Assembly (NCBI GenBank): GCA_025934755.1
Contig: JAICWQ010000002.1
Span: 1 to 53,373, forward strand
DNA: 53,373 bases
Origin: Chthoniobacterales bacterium
GTDB lineage: Bacteria; Verrucomicrobiota; Verrucomicrobiia; Chthoniobacterales; UBA10450
Reading direction: 5' to 3'
Shown here: one piece after another, positions 5,436 through 20,351 of the stretch
How positions within the stretch are numbered: position 1 is the stretch's first letter
Layout: every line of letters starts with the position of its first letter
Program-made: the position numbers and the translations under genes
The notes under the pieces: model-generated
Databases searched by the model: none
The model's input: the letters and a program-made list of their open reading frames with translations, nothing else
Told to the model about the DNA's origin: nothing

Positions 5436-8400
5436 TCACGTTTGCACGGCGACAGATGCCGTGCGCTCCAATTTACCCCAACTCACCCATGCGCCTTTGA
5501 TTCCGCGCAGGACCGCTTTCCAAATGCAGTAGCTCAACATCGGTCGATAAATCAGACGCATCGGCAGGATCCGCCAGGCGCGCGACACCGGTTCTTTCTC
5601 CAAAATGCAGGCCAGGGTCGCCAAAATGACGTCCATCGAAAGAAAGGTGATGACGAAGGGCAACACCGCGTGCCAGGCGCCAAACGGAAGGGAGGCGAGC
5701 AGGAACAGATCAACGACCGGCGTCACCGCGACGAGAATAATTTGGAAAAACCACACACTTGGCAAACTGAACCAGCCAAGCGCCCGATAATTCCAATTGA
5801 ACACCATGTCGCGATGCTTCCAGAGACACTGCAGCGTGCCGTAAGCCCAGCGAAAACGTTGTTTCGCCAGCGTGCGAACCGATTCCGGTGCTTCGGTCCA
5901 GCCGATCGCGTCCGGCACGTAAACGATAAGCTGGCGATCTTTGTGCAGGGCGAAAGTTAAATCGGTGTCTTCGGCGAGGGTTTGCAAACTCAAACCGCCG
6001 GCCTGGTCAATCGCACTTTTCCGGACGGCGCTGATTGCGCCGGGAACAACCGTGATGCAGTTCCATCGCGTGTAGGCACGTCGATCCAGATTGAATCCGC
6101 AAGTGTATTCGAGTGACTGGCAACGCGCGATGAAGGTCCGCAAATTTCCAACCTTGGCGTGTCCGGAAACCGCGCCGATCGCCTCGTCGGCAAACGGCTC
6201 TACCAAAAACGAGAGGCTATCGCGCTGGAAATGGGTGTCGGCATCGACAAATACGACGATGCCAGTGCGGACCACCGACAGTGCGCGTTGCAAAGCGCGA
6301 GCTTTTCCGTGATTTTCCTGTTGAAGCAAACGGACGCGCGGTTCCGCCTCCGCGATGCGCTTGACTTCAGCAGCGGTCTCATCGCGCGAGCCGTCGTCAA
6401 CGACGATAATTTCGACCTCGCCCTTATAATCCGTGGTGAGTAACGAACGAAGCGTTCCGGCAATGACTTTTTCTTCGTTGTAAGCTGCGACCACGATGCT
6501 GACCGGTTCGGCGAAGTTCGTTCGCGGCAAACGCCGGAAACGATACGCCAGGCAAATAACGATCAACGTCCGGACCACGACCAAAGCGGTTGCGACGATC
6601 ATGAAGGCCCAGAGAAATTCCTCAAGCGCGTGATAAACGCGAAACCCGGTGCTACTGACTAAGCGATTCAGTGAGGGATTGTTTGTCTGCAGCGGCGGCA
6701 TTACCGCGTCGCGCGACGTTCCAAGCAAAGTGCTCAGCGGCACGATTGTATCGCCGCGAATGTGCAACCAATCGAGAATCCGCGGCAAGGCAGCCACGGT
6801 TTGAGATCGGTCGCCGCCCGCGTCGTGCAGCAAGATAATGCTACCGTCACGCCGTTGCTGCTTCACTCGTTGAACAATGATGTCCGCGCCCGGTCTTGCC
6901 CAATCCTGCGGATCAATGTTTTCGAGAACAACAAGATAGTTTAGTTCCTGGGCAATTTGGAGCGGCATCAACTCACTGATCGACGATGGCTGGGTGTCTG
7001 CGGCGTAAGGCGGACGAAACAATGTCGTCGCCCGCCCCGTAATCGTTTCAATCAATAGCTGCGTCGCATTTAATTCAAGGCGCACATGCTCCGGCCAGGC
7101 CAGGGCCAGGTTCGTGTGATAGTAAGTATGATTTCCGATTTCGTGGCCTTCGTTTACAATCCGCCTAACCAGTCCCGGATATTTTTCGGCGTTGACGCCC
7201 ACCAGAAAAAACGCCGCCTTCACCTTTGCCGCTTTCAAAATGTCCAGGATCTGAGGGGTCCATTCCGGATCGGGCCCGTCATCAAAAGTGATCGCGACCT
7301 GGTGCTCACCGCCCGCTCCCTGATGATACAGGGTCGGAAACTCGGGAAACTTTATGTACTTCGCGGTCAGATAACCCTCGGCGTCAATCGCGAGCTTTCG
7401 CATTCCATCAGACCGGCTTTCGTCGACTGTCACAATTTCCCCGTCGCCGACATCGGTGATCGTGTCGGTCCCTTTTAACACTTCGAGTTGTTCGCGGGTT
7501 TGATTGTCAATTTTGAAATCCCGCGGCACAGCCAGCGCGTCCCAAATCGCTGGATCTTCGGCACCCAGCCGATAAAGGGCAAAGCCACCGGCCTTCTGGT
7601 CGCGCACTTCGCGTAACTGATTCAAAAAAGTAACAACATCGAGGAACCAAACGGCATGTTCCTGATCGCCGTCCTCGAAATAAAAATAGGGATCGTAGCC
7701 GGGCCCGGTGACTTCGGCGCTGTCAACCTCCGCGTTTTGCGCCCGGCTCATCGCCTCGGCAAAACTGATCAACTCCGCTTTTTTCCCGCCGACGGTCCAG
7801 TCGTAGCCGTAGCCTCCGAGCGAAATGATCCATTGTTTGCTGTCGCCCCCTTCCAGCAGAACGCGCAACCAACCCTCAAACCACGAACGCGACGCAAGCG
7901 GCCCCGGCGGATCTATGTCGGATGTCTCGTCGAAAAGTGACGCCACAAAACGATCGACGTTGTCGGATAATTCATCGAAGTCGATGTAATCGATGTCCTG
8001 CCCTGGCTCGACCGTTAGCCAGAGTTCCTTGTCGTTGTTGTGGAGCGCATCGCAAAATTTGTCGATGAAGGCGGTAATATCCTTCTTGTAAGCCGGATCG
8101 ATCTGCTCCCAATCGATCACCACGCCTTTGGCTTTCGCATCGCGCAAGGTCGCGATAATCTTTGCGAAGAAACGTTCCTGCCGATCGGCCGGGCCGTGGG
8201 CAAGATTCTCAATCGCTTCGGGCTGCCAGGTGTCACCCACCAAATTGGTCAGCAGCGGCATAAGGATGATTCCCTTGCTGGCGCATAATTTCGGGAGCCG
8301 GCTGTCGGCATCGATTTGAATATCACCGGAGCCGTTCACCACCGTCATCCATTCCGGACACAAATGCGTAATCAACGATGCGTGTTCTTCCAGCGAGGTG

Positions 8401-14971: not shown

Positions 14972-16379
14972 TGGGCATTTTCAACCGCAGATACGATAGC
15001 AAATCAGTCCGCGTAATCAGGCCGAGGAATTTATCGTTATCCATCACGATCGCGACCCGGCCGCGCTCGAAAACTTCCAGCAGATCGTTGATCTTCGCCG
15101 TCGGCGGCAGCGTTTCGAGCTTGTCGGTCATCGCGTTCTCGACGCGATCGTTGAAGTGGCTCGAATCGCGATTCACTTTCACCAGGATATCGGATTCATC
15201 GACAATGCCGACCGCGCGCGCGTTTTGATCGACCACCGGCAATTGTGAAACGTCCGCGCTGCGCATTCGCTTGAAAGCCGTCAACAAGGTGTCAGTGGGT
15301 CCGACGGTGATCACTTCGCCGGCTTCGTAGCGATGTGAAATCAAATCGCTCAGGTCACCATGGGAATGCCGGTGAATGAATCCCTGCTCGGCCATCCAAA
15401 AATCGTTGTACATCTTCGAGAGATATTTATTGCCCGTATCCGGAACCAGACTGACGACCCGTTTTGGCTTTTCCTGTTCCCGGCAATAACGCAACGCGCC
15501 GGCGACCAGTGTCCCGGTCGAAGAACCGCCGAATATCCCTTCCTTGCGCAGAAGATCGCGGGCGACCGCGAAACTTTCTTCATCGTCGATCTCGTAGGCA
15601 TCGGTCACGAGCGACATATCGAGAATTTCCGGAATGAAATCTTCGCCGATGCCTTCAACTGCCCAGCTTCCAGCTTCTTTGAGTTTGCCGGTCTTAACAT
15701 AACCACAAAGAACCGACCCTTTCGGGTCCGCTAGGATCATTTCAATTCCACGCCGCGGTTTCACCCGATTAAAAAAGCGTCCAAGGCCAGTCAGGGTCCC
15801 GCCCGAACCGACGCCGACAACGATTGCATCCACGTCGTGACGCATTTGCTCCCAAATTTCCGGACCGGTGGTGCGTTCATGGGCGAGCGGATTGGCCGGA
15901 TTGCCGAACTGGTTCACATAAAACGCGCCTGAAATTTCCCCGGCCAAACGCGCCGCGACATCTTGATAATATTCCGGATGACCACGGGTGACATCCGATC
16001 GCGTCAATACAACTTCGGCGCCAAGGGCCTTGACGTGGGAAATTTTTTCCTGAGACATCTTGTCCGGAATCACCAGCACGACCCGATAACCCTTCGCCAC
16101 CGCGACCAGCGCGAGTCCGAGGCCGGTGTTTCCCGCAGTCGCTTCGATGACCGTTCCGCCTGGCTCCAGTTTTCCCTCTTCCTCCGCCGCTTCGATCATC
16201 GAGAGCGCGATCCGGTCTTTGATCGAGCCGGTGGGATTTTGATTTTCCAACTTCAAGAAAAGATGACACGGCCCGGTGTCGAAGCGCGTGATCTCAATCA
16301 ACGGCGTCTCGCCGATCATCGAGAGAATGGCGGGCGGCTTCTTTAAACTGAGCGCTGACGCAGCGGGGAGCTCGGTCAT
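14967..16379 (-). CDS. Cystathionine beta-synthase with tandem CBS domains
   Basis: This 470-residue protein has a fold-type II PLP domain (about 15-335): LENQNPTGSIKDRIALSMIE with Schiff-base Lys54, EATAGNTGLGLALVA, VGVGSGGTLTGLGRFF and GIFGGSSTGT. Two CBS motifs follow (about 345-465), ending FLGLITRTDLLSYL. The architecture equals eukaryotic and bacterial cystathionine beta-synthase minus the haem N-terminus. It condenses serine (or an activated serine) with homocysteine; CBS domains usually bind adenosyl ligands. Its ATG overlaps the stop of the thioredoxin-like gene (ATGA). The stop codon comes from the repeat element at 14919-14971. A cysteine-synthase activity cannot be excluded. Confidence 0.93.
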   Translation of the reverse strand: MTELPAASALSLKKPPAILSMIGETPLIEITRFDTGPCHLFLKLENQNPTGSIKDRIALSMIEAAEEEGKLEPGGTVIEATAGNTGLGLALVAVAKGYRVVLVIPDKMSQEKISHVKALGAEVVLTRSDVTRGHPEYYQDVAARLAGEISGAFYVNQFGNPANPLAHERTTGPEIWEQMRHDVDAIVVGVGSGGTLTGLGRFFNRVKPRRGIEMILADPKGSVLCGYVKTGKLKEAGSWAVEGIGEDFIPEILDMSLVTDAYEIDDEESFAVARDLLRKEGIFGGSSTGTLVAGALRYCREQEKPKRVVSLVPDTGNKYLSKMYNDFWMAEQGFIHRHSHGDLSDLISHRYEAGEVITVGPTDTLLTAFKRMRSADVSQLPVVDQNARAVGIVDESDILVKVNRDSSHFNDRVENAMTDKLETLPPTAKINDLLEVFERGRVAIVMDNDKFLGLITRTDLLSYLRLKMPR

Positions 16380-16933
16380 TCGGGAAGCTTGGGTTCGCCT
16401 TTATGAGACCATTCTGATTTGCTGTCCTCAAGAAATTGCTGGAGGACGTCGAACCGGACCTCTCCGTAATTCAGGGCGTAACGGAGGTCGCCTTTTTTGT
16501 AGACCCAGGTCGTCGGAATCCAGGACACAGGCATGCCGGCAAATCGTTTGATCTTGTTGTCACCACGGCGCGGACCCGGATCGGACAAAATGGTCACGTT
16601 CGGCTGATCGGCGATTTGGAATTTTTGCAACATCGCTTTGCCGTCTCCGCCGTCGTTCCAAATCGACACAAAATAAAATTTAACGTCCGGGTTCGCTTTG
16701 ACGATTTTCAACCAGCCGCCGCTTTTCAGCTCCGCCTGACAATTCGGACACCATGGAGCCCAGAGATGAACGACGGTTAGATCGGCTGATTTGATCGCGC
16801 CAAGAACAGTTTGCTCGGCCGCGGGCTTTGGTACGAGCCCCCGATCCAGGTCATCTTGACCGCGAACGACGGCGATTGACCCGAGGACCCCCGCCACCGC
16901 CAGTGTTCGCAAGATCAACATCTTACTTACCAT
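16376..16933 (-). CDS. Exported thioredoxin-like protein
   Basis: With ATG 16933 the product has 185 residues; ATG 16921 is a possible alternative. A signal peptide or anchor (LRTLAVAGVLGSIAVVRG) precedes a thioredoxin fold with VVHLWAPWCPNCQAEL, so the redox motif is CPNC, and the conserved cis-Pro region reads GMPVSWIPTTWVY. It resembles TlpA/ResA proteins that reduce disulfides outside the cytoplasm. It is first in the run and is translationally coupled to cystathionine beta-synthase, an unusual partner. The palindromic element with target duplications lies just upstream (16976-17018), in the region expected to hold its promoter. Confidence 0.85.
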   Translation of the reverse strand: MVSKMLILRTLAVAGVLGSIAVVRGQDDLDRGLVPKPAAEQTVLGAIKSADLTVVHLWAPWCPNCQAELKSGGWLKIVKANPDVKFYFVSIWNDGGDGKAMLQKFQIADQPNVTILSDPGPRRGDNKIKRFAGMPVSWIPTTWVYKKGDLRYALNYGEVRFDVLQQFLEDSKSEWSHKGEPKLPE

Positions 16934-16975
16934 AGAAGAAAACGCCGAACCCTCAACGCCGAACACCCGACACCG

Positions 16976-17018
16976 AAGGCAGAGGTAGTGTCCTAAATTA
17001 GGACACTACCAAGGCAGA
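16976..17018. mobile_element. 27-bp palindromic element with 8-bp target-site duplication
   Basis: A perfect palindrome with 13-bp arms (GGTAGTGTCCTAA / TTAGGACACTACC, one-base centre) spans 16984-17010. The octamer AAGGCAGA occurs immediately on both sides (16976-16983 and 17011-17018). Exact direct repeats touching inverted-repeat ends are what a cut-and-paste (DDE-type) insertion leaves, here with no cargo. The GGTAG...CTACC ends are shared with the hairpin elements at 2070 and 14919. It lies in the divergent region between the trx-like gene and rpsA. Confidence 0.8.
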
Positions 17019-17025
17019 AGCTCAG

Positions 17026-17054
17026 TTGACCGCGGATGTGAAAACGCCTAATGT
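17026..17054 (+). promoter_or_regulatory. Candidate sigma-70 promoter of rpsA
   Basis: TTGACC at 17026-17031 is followed after 17 bases by TAATGT at 17049-17054, about 75 bp before the rpsA start. The -35 box fits the consensus at five of six positions; the -10 box is weaker. It begins 8 bp after the palindromic element. Confidence 0.4.
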
Positions 17055-17129: not shown

Positions 17130-18893
17130 ATGGTGCAAATGCAGGATGTAATGTCGAAGCCGATGCCGGATTTCCGGGAGGGCTCGATCGTTAAAGGACG
17201 AATTTTGGAAGTGCGACCGCGCGAGGTGCTGGTCGATATTGGTTACAAGTCCGAGGGCGTCATTTCATTGTCGGAATTTGACGACGTCGAGAACCTCGAA
17301 GTTGGCGACGAAGTCGATGTATTGCTCGAGCGCCTCGAAAACGACGAAGGCATGGTCGTGCTTTCCAAGGAAAAAGCGGCTTATCGCCAGAACTGGAACA
17401 AGATCGCCAGCGTTTTCCAGGAAGACGGGCTGATCAAAGGCAAAGTGAAGTCCGTGGTTAAAGGCGGCTTGATGGTGAACATCGGCGTCGAAGCATTCCT
17501 GCCCGCGTCGCAGATCGATATTGTTCCGCCGAAAGACCTCCAGCAGTTCGTCGGCAACACTTATGATTTCAAGATCGTCAAGATCAACGACGATCGCCGC
17601 AACGTGGTTTTGAGCCGCCGGGAATTGATCGAGCAGGAACGGAGCGAAAAACGCCAGCAATTCATGGACAGCGTGAAAGTCGGCGACCGGGTCAATGGCA
17701 CGGTAAAGAATCTCACCGACTTCGGCGCGTTCATCGATCTCGATGGCATGGACGGTTTGCTCCACATCACCGACATGAGCTGGGGCCGCCTTGGACATCC
17801 GAGCGAGCTCGTTAAAGTTGGCCAACAACTCGAAGTCCAGGTCCTTGATATTAATAAAGAGAAAGAGCGGGTTTCGCTCGGCCTGAAACAGCTTCAGAAA
17901 AATCCGTGGGACCAGATTGAGGAACGCTTCCCGGCTGGGCAAAAAGTTAAAGGAAAAATTACGAACCTCGTTCCCTACGGCGCGTTCGTGGAACTGGAGG
18001 AAGGCGTCGAGGGTCTTATTCACGTTTCCGAACTTTCCTGGACCAAACGAATCATGCGGCCGTCCGATATTTTGACAGTTGGCCAGGAAGTTGAAGCAGT
18101 TGTCCTTGGCGTAAATAAAGAAGAACAAAAGATTTCGCTCGGTCTGCGTCAGCTCGAGGCAAATCCGTGGGACGAGATCGAGAAAAAGTTCACCATCGGC
18201 AGCCGGGTCAAGGGAACGATCCGCAACATGACCGCCTACGGCGCGTTCGTGGAGCTTGATGAAGGAATCGATGGAATGATCCACGTCTCAGACCTGAGCT
18301 GGACCCGGAAGATTAATCATCCGAGCGAAATGTTTAAGAAAAGCGACGAAGTCGAAGCCGAAGTCATCGATATCGACAAAACCAATCAGCGGATCAGTCT
18401 CGGCATCAAACAACTGAGCGACGATCCCTGGAAAACGATCGATCAGAAATACAAGATCGGGGATTTGGTGAAAGGCAAAGTCAGCAAGCTCGCCAGTTTC
18501 GGAGCGTTTGTAGAATTACAAGACGACATCGACGGCCTCGTCCACATCTCGCAGTTGAGTGAAGACCACGTCGCCAAAGTAAAAGACGTGCTCAAAGTCG
18601 GTCAGGAGGTCGAAGCGCGGGTGATTAAGGTGGACAAGGTCGAACGCCGTATCGGGTTGTCGATCAAAGCCGCCAATTATTCCGAAGAACAACTTCGCAA
18701 AGAGGCGGAGACTTTCGACACTCTTCGACCTGGCGAAGACATGGTCGGTTTGGAGAAAGCGTTCGCTGCGGCCGAGCAGGAAGAATATCGGCCCGGCGAA
18801 TCCAAGAAAGCTGTCACCAAAGAATCGAAGGAACCGAAGGCGGCAAAAGAGTCTAAAGAATCCAAGCCGAAGAAAGAGTCGAAGAAGAAGTAG
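17130..18893 (+). CDS. rpsA: 30S ribosomal protein S1
   Basis: At 587 residues the protein has six S1/OB-fold repeats (about 15-81, 100-165, 185-255, 272-341, 358-429 and 445-515). The last four carry the repeated signature YGAFVELEEGVEGLIHVSEL and SLGLKQL..NPW. A Lys/Glu/Ser-rich tail (about 555-587) ends the chain. S1 recruits mRNAs to the small ribosomal subunit and unwinds their leaders. The start MVQMQDVMSK follows AAGGAG by about a dozen bases; the second Met (MQDV) is an alternative. The gene is preceded by a hairpin and a candidate promoter. Confidence 0.97.
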   Translation: MVQMQDVMSKPMPDFREGSIVKGRILEVRPREVLVDIGYKSEGVISLSEFDDVENLEVGDEVDVLLERLENDEGMVVLSKEKAAYRQNWNKIASVFQEDGLIKGKVKSVVKGGLMVNIGVEAFLPASQIDIVPPKDLQQFVGNTYDFKIVKINDDRRNVVLSRRELIEQERSEKRQQFMDSVKVGDRVNGTVKNLTDFGAFIDLDGMDGLLHITDMSWGRLGHPSELVKVGQQLEVQVLDINKEKERVSLGLKQLQKNPWDQIEERFPAGQKVKGKITNLVPYGAFVELEEGVEGLIHVSELSWTKRIMRPSDILTVGQEVEAVVLGVNKEEQKISLGLRQLEANPWDEIEKKFTIGSRVKGTIRNMTAYGAFVELDEGIDGMIHVSDLSWTRKINHPSEMFKKSDEVEAEVIDIDKTNQRISLGIKQLSDDPWKTIDQKYKIGDLVKGKVSKLASFGAFVELQDDIDGLVHISQLSEDHVAKVKDVLKVGQEVEARVIKVDKVERRIGLSIKAANYSEEQLRKEAETFDTLRPGEDMVGLEKAFAAAEQEEYRPGESKKAVTKESKEPKAAKESKESKPKKESKKK

Positions 18894-18950: not shown

Positions 18951-20351
18951 ATGCAGATGAACTGGCGTTTGTTAACGGCGATCAATGCCGCGATCGCGCT
19001 CGTGACCGTTTGCGCGGTGATTTATATGGTCACTCGGTCGCCTGCGCCCAAGCGAACGAGTCGCGAATCTGCACAAAGGAGATCCGAACCTTCGACGAGC
19101 AGTCCGCCAGACGAACGAGCCGGGAAGAAAATTTCAATCGAATCGCCCGAGGATCTGACTAATGCCCGGGTCGATGATTTGGGCGCCGTGCCTGCCGTCG
19201 AGCTCACGGAACTTATGCGTCGCGCCACTCCCGAACAGTTGGCGATTCTAGCCGATAAATTTAACGACGCTCCAACCGACGCGCGAACTCTAGGTGGAAT
19301 GGCGATCTTTTTTCAAAATTGGGCACAGCTTGACCCGCAATCCGCGCTGATTAACGCTTTTAAACTTAACGATGTCACTTTCCGAAAATTGGCGACCACC
19401 GCAGTTGTTGGCTCCGCATCTCCTTCCGCTGCCGCAGAACTAATTGGATATATCACCCAGCACCCGGACAAAGATTTGTCAGAAGAGTGCAAGAATAGAT
19501 TCTTAAATCCGCTTATCGACAATTGGTCAACCCTTGATCCTGAAGCGGCATCAAAATACCTGGATGAACTCGGCGATACGAAAAACGAGCTAAATTCAAC
19601 CGCCAGGGAAAACATCGCATATAATTGGGCCTCACTCGATCCATCGGCCGCGCTCGATTGGATCGCTAAGCAGAAAGGGAAGGATTTTGTCGGTATCGCT
19701 TCCTTGCATGACGCAGCCCTTCGAGGGTGGTGTCTTAAAGATTTAGCCGCTGCAGCGACGTATGTTCAGCAGCATCTTGACGAGCCGGTTGGGAAACACT
19801 CGGTGGAGTCGGTAGCCAAGGCCTTGTTCGACCACAGCATTGAGGACGCGACAAGATGGATCGGTCGATTGCCCGCCGGCGAACAACGAGGTCACGCGGA
19901 AACGGCGATCGCTCAGAGCTGGGTCGACAAGGATCCGGTTGCCAGTTCAAAGTGGTTGGCCACGCTTTCCGAAAGCGATCAAAAGGATCTGGTGGAAACG
20001 ATTGTGAGAGGTTGGGCAGCCCAAAATTGGACCGATACATCGCGCTGGATCGAGACATTAACCGGGGACGTCCGCGATTATGCGATTTCGAGCGCAATGA
20101 ACATGCACCCCGAGGGCACAACCGAAAGCGATTCGCTTACCATGGCACTTACGATTCGTAATGAAGAGCTGCGCACCACCAGAATCTATGAAGCGATCCA
20201 GGGTTGGGCTTATAGCGACGCGCAGTCGGCTGAAACGTGGGTGAGGAACAGTCCACTTTCATCCGAAGAGAAAGAGCATCTACTTTCGCGAATCTCAGAG
20301 ATACGCAAAACTACCAGCGAAGAGGCTGCCGCCGAAGCGACCACCAACTAA
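18951..20351 (+). CDS. Membrane-anchored tandem helical-repeat protein
   Basis: The product has 466 residues. A single N-terminal helix (LTAINAAIALVTVCAVIYMV, about 8-27) is followed by an S/P/R-rich linker. About eight degenerate repeats of 31-36 residues then follow, with the core W-x(3)-D-P-x-A-A-x-x-W-l-x-x-L. Examples are NWSTLDPEAASKYLDEL (192), NWASLDPSAALDWIAKQ (226), SWVDKDPVASSKWLATL (324) and GWAYSDAQSAETWVRN (419). This suggests an alpha-solenoid related to TPR or HEAT repeats, sitting outside the membrane and binding proteins. It lies 57 bp after rpsA on the same strand, but a functional link is not evident. The function is unknown. Confidence 0.8.
   Translation: MQMNWRLLTAINAAIALVTVCAVIYMVTRSPAPKRTSRESAQRRSEPSTSSPPDERAGKKISIESPEDLTNARVDDLGAVPAVELTELMRRATPEQLAILADKFNDAPTDARTLGGMAIFFQNWAQLDPQSALINAFKLNDVTFRKLATTAVVGSASPSAAAELIGYITQHPDKDLSEECKNRFLNPLIDNWSTLDPEAASKYLDELGDTKNELNSTARENIAYNWASLDPSAALDWIAKQKGKDFVGIASLHDAALRGWCLKDLAAAATYVQQHLDEPVGKHSVESVAKALFDHSIEDATRWIGRLPAGEQRGHAETAIAQSWVDKDPVASSKWLATLSESDQKDLVETIVRGWAAQNWTDTSRWIETLTGDVRDYAISSAMNMHPEGTTESDSLTMALTIRNEELRTTRIYEAIQGWAYSDAQSAETWVRNSPLSSEEKEHLLSRISEIRKTTSEEAAAEATTN

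Follow-up and report, generated by a model that had tools for sequence, protein, structure and literature searches.

The window, a stretch of 53,373 nucleotides from a contig of a Chthoniobacterales bacterium, contains a short palindrome in the intergenic region between two divergently oriented genes. Positions 16976-17018 read exactly AAGGCAGA-GGTAGTGTCCTAA-A-TTAGGACACTACC-AAGGCAGA, in which a 27-bp palindrome (16984-17010), its two 13-bp arms matching perfectly around a single central nucleotide, is abutted without a gap by the octamer AAGGCAGA on the left (16976-16983) and on the right (17011-17018). The chance probability of an octamer duplication with at most one mismatch is 0.0004 per site. 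A preliminary description of this DNA, made from the sequence alone, had reported the palindrome, its exact 8-bp duplication, and the divergent trx and rpsA context; its coordinates and sequence were borne out, as was the gene context, with the refinement that the promoter of rpsA is the relevant one. The features of the locus, with the transposon parts named according to the reading that we favour below, are the following:

16376-16966, minus strand: thioredoxin-like gene, the leftward neighbour
16976-16983, no strand: left copy of the putative target duplication, 8 bp, AAGGCAGA (direct reading)
16984-16996, plus strand: putative left transposon end, GGTAGTGTCCTAA, the outer 13 nt of an IS1-like terminal inverted repeat
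16997, no strand: single central base, the putative remainder of a 2-4 kb interior
16998-17010, minus strand: putative right transposon end, the left end inverted
17011-17018, no strand: right copy of the putative target duplication, AAGGCAGA (direct reading)
17026-17031, plus strand: predicted −35 hexamer of the rpsA promoter, TTGACC, starting 15 bp past the element end
17049-17054, plus strand: predicted −10 hexamer of the rpsA promoter, TAATGT, after a 17-bp spacer
17130-18893, plus strand: rpsA, 30S ribosomal protein S1 (from the open reading frame list, with S1-type domain repeats read in the translation)

Within the window, the only perfect matches to the arm were the two arms of the palindrome, and at up to two mismatches there were three matches, two of which were the palindrome itself (shuffled sequences gave a mean of 0.22 and a maximum of 2). 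A lone arm-like sequence with two mismatches, GGTGGTGTCTTAA, lies at 19726-19738 inside the open reading frame at 18951-20351; it is compatible with chance and equals the variant arm of a palindrome in the related genome G039. The left target duplication is touched by a dispersed GC-rich repeat, GAAAACGCCGAACCCTCAACGCCGAACACCCGACACC (16934-16975), and stretches resembling this repeat at about 80-90% identity occur elsewhere in the genome (C246, C12) and in many relatives.

The source genome (2.97 Mb in 258 contigs, 98.5% complete) contained no second copy of the arm at up to one mismatch when all contigs were searched, nor did it yield a full-length element with such ends. Its only near-complete IS1-like transposase (C242) was 36% identical, and the ends of that element were not found on a contig that runs about 600 bp past the transposase. 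The palindrome was absent from all orthologous trx-rpsA regions that we examined in the family. Among the 82 other family genomes there was one palindrome with three mismatches, GGTGGTGTCTTAAATTAAGACACTACC (G039), accompanied by the 8-bp duplication GGGGTTTG, and save for such divergent or differently placed copies the palindrome was absent from the family genomes searched. The motif TTGACC-N16/17-TA(C/A)T(A/G)T was present upstream of rpsA in 19/19 family loci with an anchorable start codon, and palindrome arms were present upstream of this promoter in 0/19; since the motif is kept in relatives that lack the insertion, we interpret TTGACC...TAATGT as the rpsA promoter. The DNA immediately upstream of the −35 hexamer is unalignable between species, even those of the same genus, and an empty site with a single copy of AAGGCAGA therefore cannot be displayed. 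The preliminary description had held that an insertion would be contradicted if all relatives carried the palindrome or if the genome contained no other copy. The relatives do lack it, but there is no further copy in the genome of origin; this genome alone thus leaves the matter undecided, and it is copies in other genomes that settle the point.

Scanning one genome per species for the pattern TAGTGTCCTAA-N(0-30)-TTAGGACACTA returned matches on 45 contigs, where arithmetic predicts about 0.5 by chance; these came chiefly from soil Acidobacteriota, and also from Verrucomicrobiota, Planctomycetota, Deltaproteobacteria, Gemmatimonadota, and others. With the addition of looser searches of chosen genomes, an Acidobacteriota order, the class to which the window belongs, and viral contigs, the total reached 81 non-redundant palindromes from many soil phyla, nearly all of them 24-52 bp long. 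Target duplications directly outside the GG...CC tips were found at 53 of the 81 (48 of 8 bp and five of 9 bp), against a chance expectation of about 0.03 for 8-bp duplications among the 81, and the remaining 28 had none. The arms often correspond to terminal repeats of 13-18 nt that occur in a transposon family, and two such ends wholly explain 35 of the 81 palindromes, while most of the others retain an unexplained centre of up to about 20 nt. In genome G104, for example, a palindrome composed of GGTAGTGTCCTAACAGTG joined to TTAGGACACTACC (L032) repeats the 18 nt with which a further element end of that genome (L070) begins. The earlier suggestion that the palindrome looks like two fused transposon ends is thereby supported. 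Several candidates (L009, L016, L045, L004, L232, and L234) were left out as unrelated hairpins, as was a different AACCACAAAGGACAC repeat.

Full-length elements with the same ends were found in other genomes. In a Thermoanaerobaculia genome, a 3.2-kb element (L082:593-3792) has GGTAGTGTCCTAATTTG at both ends and TGCGCGGC flanking each side, and encodes a 275-aa transposase that matches DDE_Tnp_IS1 (Pfam) with 37.6 bits against a cut-off of 24.1. The sequence GGTAGTGTCCTAA is identical to the ends of this element and of others, including L293-L296, L299, L300, L303, L304, and L307, and transposases or transposase fragments related to that of L082 adjoin many other GGTAGTGTCCTAA ends. An IS1-like transposase of this clade was present in 121 of 397 Terriglobales genomes. 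From 80 fetched copies, L082, and plasmid relatives, 67 elements were delineated by matching inverted repeats (18-nt ends) and 8- or 9-bp duplications, with lengths of 1.1-6.7 kb, mostly 2-4 kb; one further candidate (L339) was dropped as unconvincing. The elements begin with exactly GGTAGTGTCCTAA in 18 of the 67 cases and with GGTAGTGGGTCAG, GGTAGTGTCTCAG, and similar sequences in others, and the transposase is a single open frame of about 275-300 aa in nearly all copies. Plasmids of the alphaproteobacteria Mesorhizobium, Hoeflea, and Acidiphilium carry elements annotated as ‘IS1 family transposase’ that have GGTAGTG... ends and exact 8-bp duplications.

IS1 was the top NCBIfam match for every full-length transposase tested, with scores of 55-93 bits that lie under the equivalog cut-off of 100, and no Mutator-type match was found for L082 in Pfam or for the tested transposases in NCBIfam. 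Like members of the IS1 family, the clade thus combines the DDE_Tnp_IS1 domain with IS1 as its best NCBIfam match, its GGTAGTG tips resemble the GGTGATG/GGTAATG of Escherichia coli IS1 (GGTnnTG), and its duplications are of 8 or 9 bp. Classical IS1 differs in having a programmed frameshift between insA and insB and a length of 768 bp, whereas the elements of the clade have a single open reading frame and extend over 2-4 kb with passenger genes beside the transposase. Because of the single open reading frame and the NCBIfam scores below the cut-off, we refer to an IS1-like clade and not to IS1 in the strict sense. Passengers in L326, L344, L363, and L082 include a STAND/AAA NTPase, a Fic-domain protein, a DNA methylase (N6_N4_Mtase), and a Cro/C1-type HTH protein; for many further passenger genes Pfam gave no match, and the clade may transport defence, regulatory, or other cargo genes. 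Open reading frames adjoining single ends were mostly host genes. The DDE-type enzyme proposed in the preliminary description in preference to RAYT/REP mobility is supported, since the transposase encoded by full-length elements that share these ends and have 8-bp duplications is an IS1-like DDE enzyme. The transposase-encoding element for which that description recommended a search was found in other genomes but not in the genome of origin.

The palindrome is very probably the collapsed remnant of an IS1-like transposon that inserted upstream of the rpsA promoter. An element with GGTAGTGTCCTAA ends and a single-frame IS1-like DDE transposase would have inserted 15 bp upstream of the −35 hexamer of rpsA, with duplication of 8 bp, a step that comparison shows for the clade and that presumably applies to the copy in the window. 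The interior would then have been lost in place, probably because the 13-18-bp inverted repeats paired into a hairpin whose loop was deleted during replication, so that two ends of 12-19 nt would come to butt together between intact target duplications. An insertion just upstream of the −35 hexamer would spare both genes and let the remnant persist. In nearly precise excision of Tn10 and Tn5, the interior is lost between inverted repeats, and what remains is a short palindrome with the duplication on either side. The proposed collapse would be analogous in leaving a short palindromic remnant between target duplications, but differs in that the arms of the remnant correspond here to 12-19-nt terminal repeats and in that the process is reconstructed from sequence. 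No collapse intermediate and no before-and-after pair at one site was seen among the copies, and the choice between collapse and transposition of a tiny element is for this reason an inferential one.

Such transposition, in which the palindrome would be a non-autonomous mobile unit of 24-50 bp that an IS1-like transposase mobilises in trans by a cut-and-paste mechanism, is unlikely, although it is the best of the alternatives. Clean 8-bp duplications flank palindromes as short as 24 bp (L247), the length range of nearly all palindromes is narrow for random decay, and related non-autonomous elements of 143 bp and about 225 bp also carry duplications. Against this, no palindrome with the same centre and duplications occurs twice within one genome, each site having its own centre, which makes an in-place loss of the interior more likely than the mobility of a unit of 26 bp. 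An apparent multi-copy case, a 41-bp repeat in genome G376, was rejected as a mobile mini-palindrome because it proved to be one end of the 225-bp element, and DNA of 26 bp would hardly allow the pairing of two transposase-bound ends. The palindromes are also phased to promoters less often than full-length copies are (28/81 against 35/67, counting −35 matches of 4/6 or better at the offset described below), which fits older, eroded insertions. In lacking coding capacity and in having transposon inverted repeats and a target duplication they resemble MITEs, but at 24-52 bp they are far shorter, are without repeat copies in a genome, and have no interior beyond the ends; they are better described as collapsed insertions or footprints. 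The element in G376 (L135, L169, L171, L176) is itself non-autonomous and present in several copies; it measures about 225 bp, has GGTAGTGTCCTAA ends, is flanked by 8-bp duplications, and mimics a 41-bp palindrome at one end, where it contains a subterminal inverted copy of the tip.

The preliminary description overlooked the promoter phasing of the insertion. We expressed this as the offset between the element end and the start of a TTGACA-like hexamer, counting matches of at least 5/6 as hits, and examined the palindromes and the 67 full-length elements, nearly all of which are at new sites relative to the palindromes. Among the 134 flanks of the full-length elements, a −35 hexamer was found at offset 15 in 27 and at offsets 14 and 16 in none, with a mean of 0.31 at offsets other than 15. 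The flanks of the palindromes gave a single sharp peak at the same place (15 of 162, mean 0.67 at other offsets), and when all 3-, 4-, and 5-mers were counted at all offsets in these flanks, TTG, TTGA, and TTGAC at offset 15 stood out most strongly, and −10-like TAG/ATA at 39-40 ranked lower. A combined −35/−10 score of at least 8/12 was reached by 29 of the 67 elements at offset 15, by five at offset 16, and by at most two at any other offset tested. Where a −35 hexamer stood at offset 15 of a full-length element, it was followed by a −10 hexamer in 16 of 27 cases, and among palindrome flanks with TTGAC at this offset, 6/12 had a −10 hexamer at a spacer of 16-18 bp; for comparison, of 1617 TTGAC sites in the DNA that was retrieved, 9.5% had one. 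The phase was weak at single ends other than those of the short palindromes, with 7/53 at offset 15 against a mean of 1.8, yet as many as 9 at another offset, and about half of the full-length insertions had no recognisable −35 hexamer at offset 15. The promoter faces either end of the element (14 against 13) and never both, and the phase recurs at numerous promoters from several phyla. On this sequence evidence, the clade is one that inserts at a single fixed phase upstream of predicted sigma70 promoters, in either orientation.

The palindrome of the window fits the phase, as it ends at 17010 and is followed 15 bp on by TTGACC from 17026, N17, and TAATGT. At a spacer of 17-18 bp the duplicated octamer of an insertion in this phase falls at about −51 to −44, and the right copy of AAGGCAGA would accordingly be placed, from the promoter hexamers, at about −51 to −44 from the putative transcription start of rpsA.

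The phase could also have arisen through selection after random insertion, if only insertions at such positions survived, and an intergenic insertion upstream of a −35 hexamer is tolerable, today’s copies being the survivors. We consider this improbable in view of the single-base sharpness of the peak, since tolerance would allow many upstream positions, and in view of the recurrence of the phase across promoters and phyla without an orientation bias. In the reading that we prefer, the transposase itself would locate its target by way of the promoter, either by recognising the −35 sequence directly or by docking on the promoter-bound RNA polymerase holoenzyme. Promoter targeting by DDE transposons has been characterised as unusual and as limited to two Mutator-like lineages (PMC3942029): insertions of TnGBS, ISLre2, and part of ISKra4 lie 13-17 bp, with a peak at 16, upstream of sigmaA promoters, and those of these elements whose inverted repeats are near-perfect show no orientation bias (PMC3942029). 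The IS1-like clade resembles them in inserting about 15 bp upstream of the −35 hexamer without an orientation bias, but their transposases are prokaryotic Mutator-like enzymes (p-MULT 3 and 4) whereas those of the clade match IS1, and as the transposases are unrelated the common targeting looks convergent. A non-exhaustive survey of the open-access literature returned no account of IS1-like elements that target promoters, and in a small sample of 32 flanks of E. coli IS1, one had a −35 hexamer at offset 15 or 16. We tentatively suggest, at somewhat less than even confidence, that the clade picks its targets by docking on the promoter-bound RNA polymerase holoenzyme and inserting across −51/−44, that this ability evolved independently of TnGBS/ISKra4, and that the 24-50-bp palindromes are its fossil record.

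That the palindrome is a regulatory operator upstream of the −35 hexamer, with an incidental octamer repeat, is very improbable. Its fixed place upstream of a promoter is like that of an activator site, and some of the 28 palindromes without a duplication have TTGACA at the same offset (L027, L030, L031). An operator would nevertheless leave the 8- or 9-bp duplications of unrelated sequence at the 53 other palindromes unaccounted for, as well as the same ends and promoter phase in full-length transposons, and it is at odds with the near-absence of the palindrome from the family genomes searched. Single-strand mobility of the RAYT/REP or IS200/IS605 type, which a short, palindromic, intergenic sequence might suggest, is effectively refuted by the target duplications, as these systems make none, and the enzyme linked to the ends is an IS1-like DDE transposase and not a Y1 enzyme.

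The palindrome is thus what is left of a known type of insertion, and it is the promoter phasing of its parent clade that would be of specialist interest and is directly testable. That an abundant IS1-like clade, unrelated to the Mutator-like lineages, shows the same spacing with single-base sharpness suggests that some feature of RNA polymerase at promoters repeatedly serves as a docking point, and the docking mechanism would be testable with purified parts; if true, it would constitute a promoter-guided transposition pathway separate in origin from that of the Mutator-like TnGBS/ISKra4 elements. The short remnants show that such insertions can last as additions of 24-50 bp ahead of essential promoters, that of rpsA among them.

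Three further observations concern individual palindromes. Near positions 6800-6826 of a viral contig (L005, IMG/VR), the 27-bp palindrome with the duplication AATGCAAC lies 15 bp upstream of TTGACA, and it seems that here the insertion struck a phage or prophage promoter. Palindromes without a duplication in two genomes of Deltaproteobacteria/Binataceae (L015, L040, L033) share downstream features, TATCAAAGTCC.AAAA-like or TTATCACC..AAAAA, and may be older copies or co-opted sites. In Acidobacteriota (L178, L179, L240, L250, L090, L192, L204), a different, AACCACAAAGGACACAAAGG-like repeat that is palindromic with CTTTGTGTCCTTTGTGGTT overlaps the search pattern in part, and is either unrelated to the IS1-like ends or a hybrid with them.
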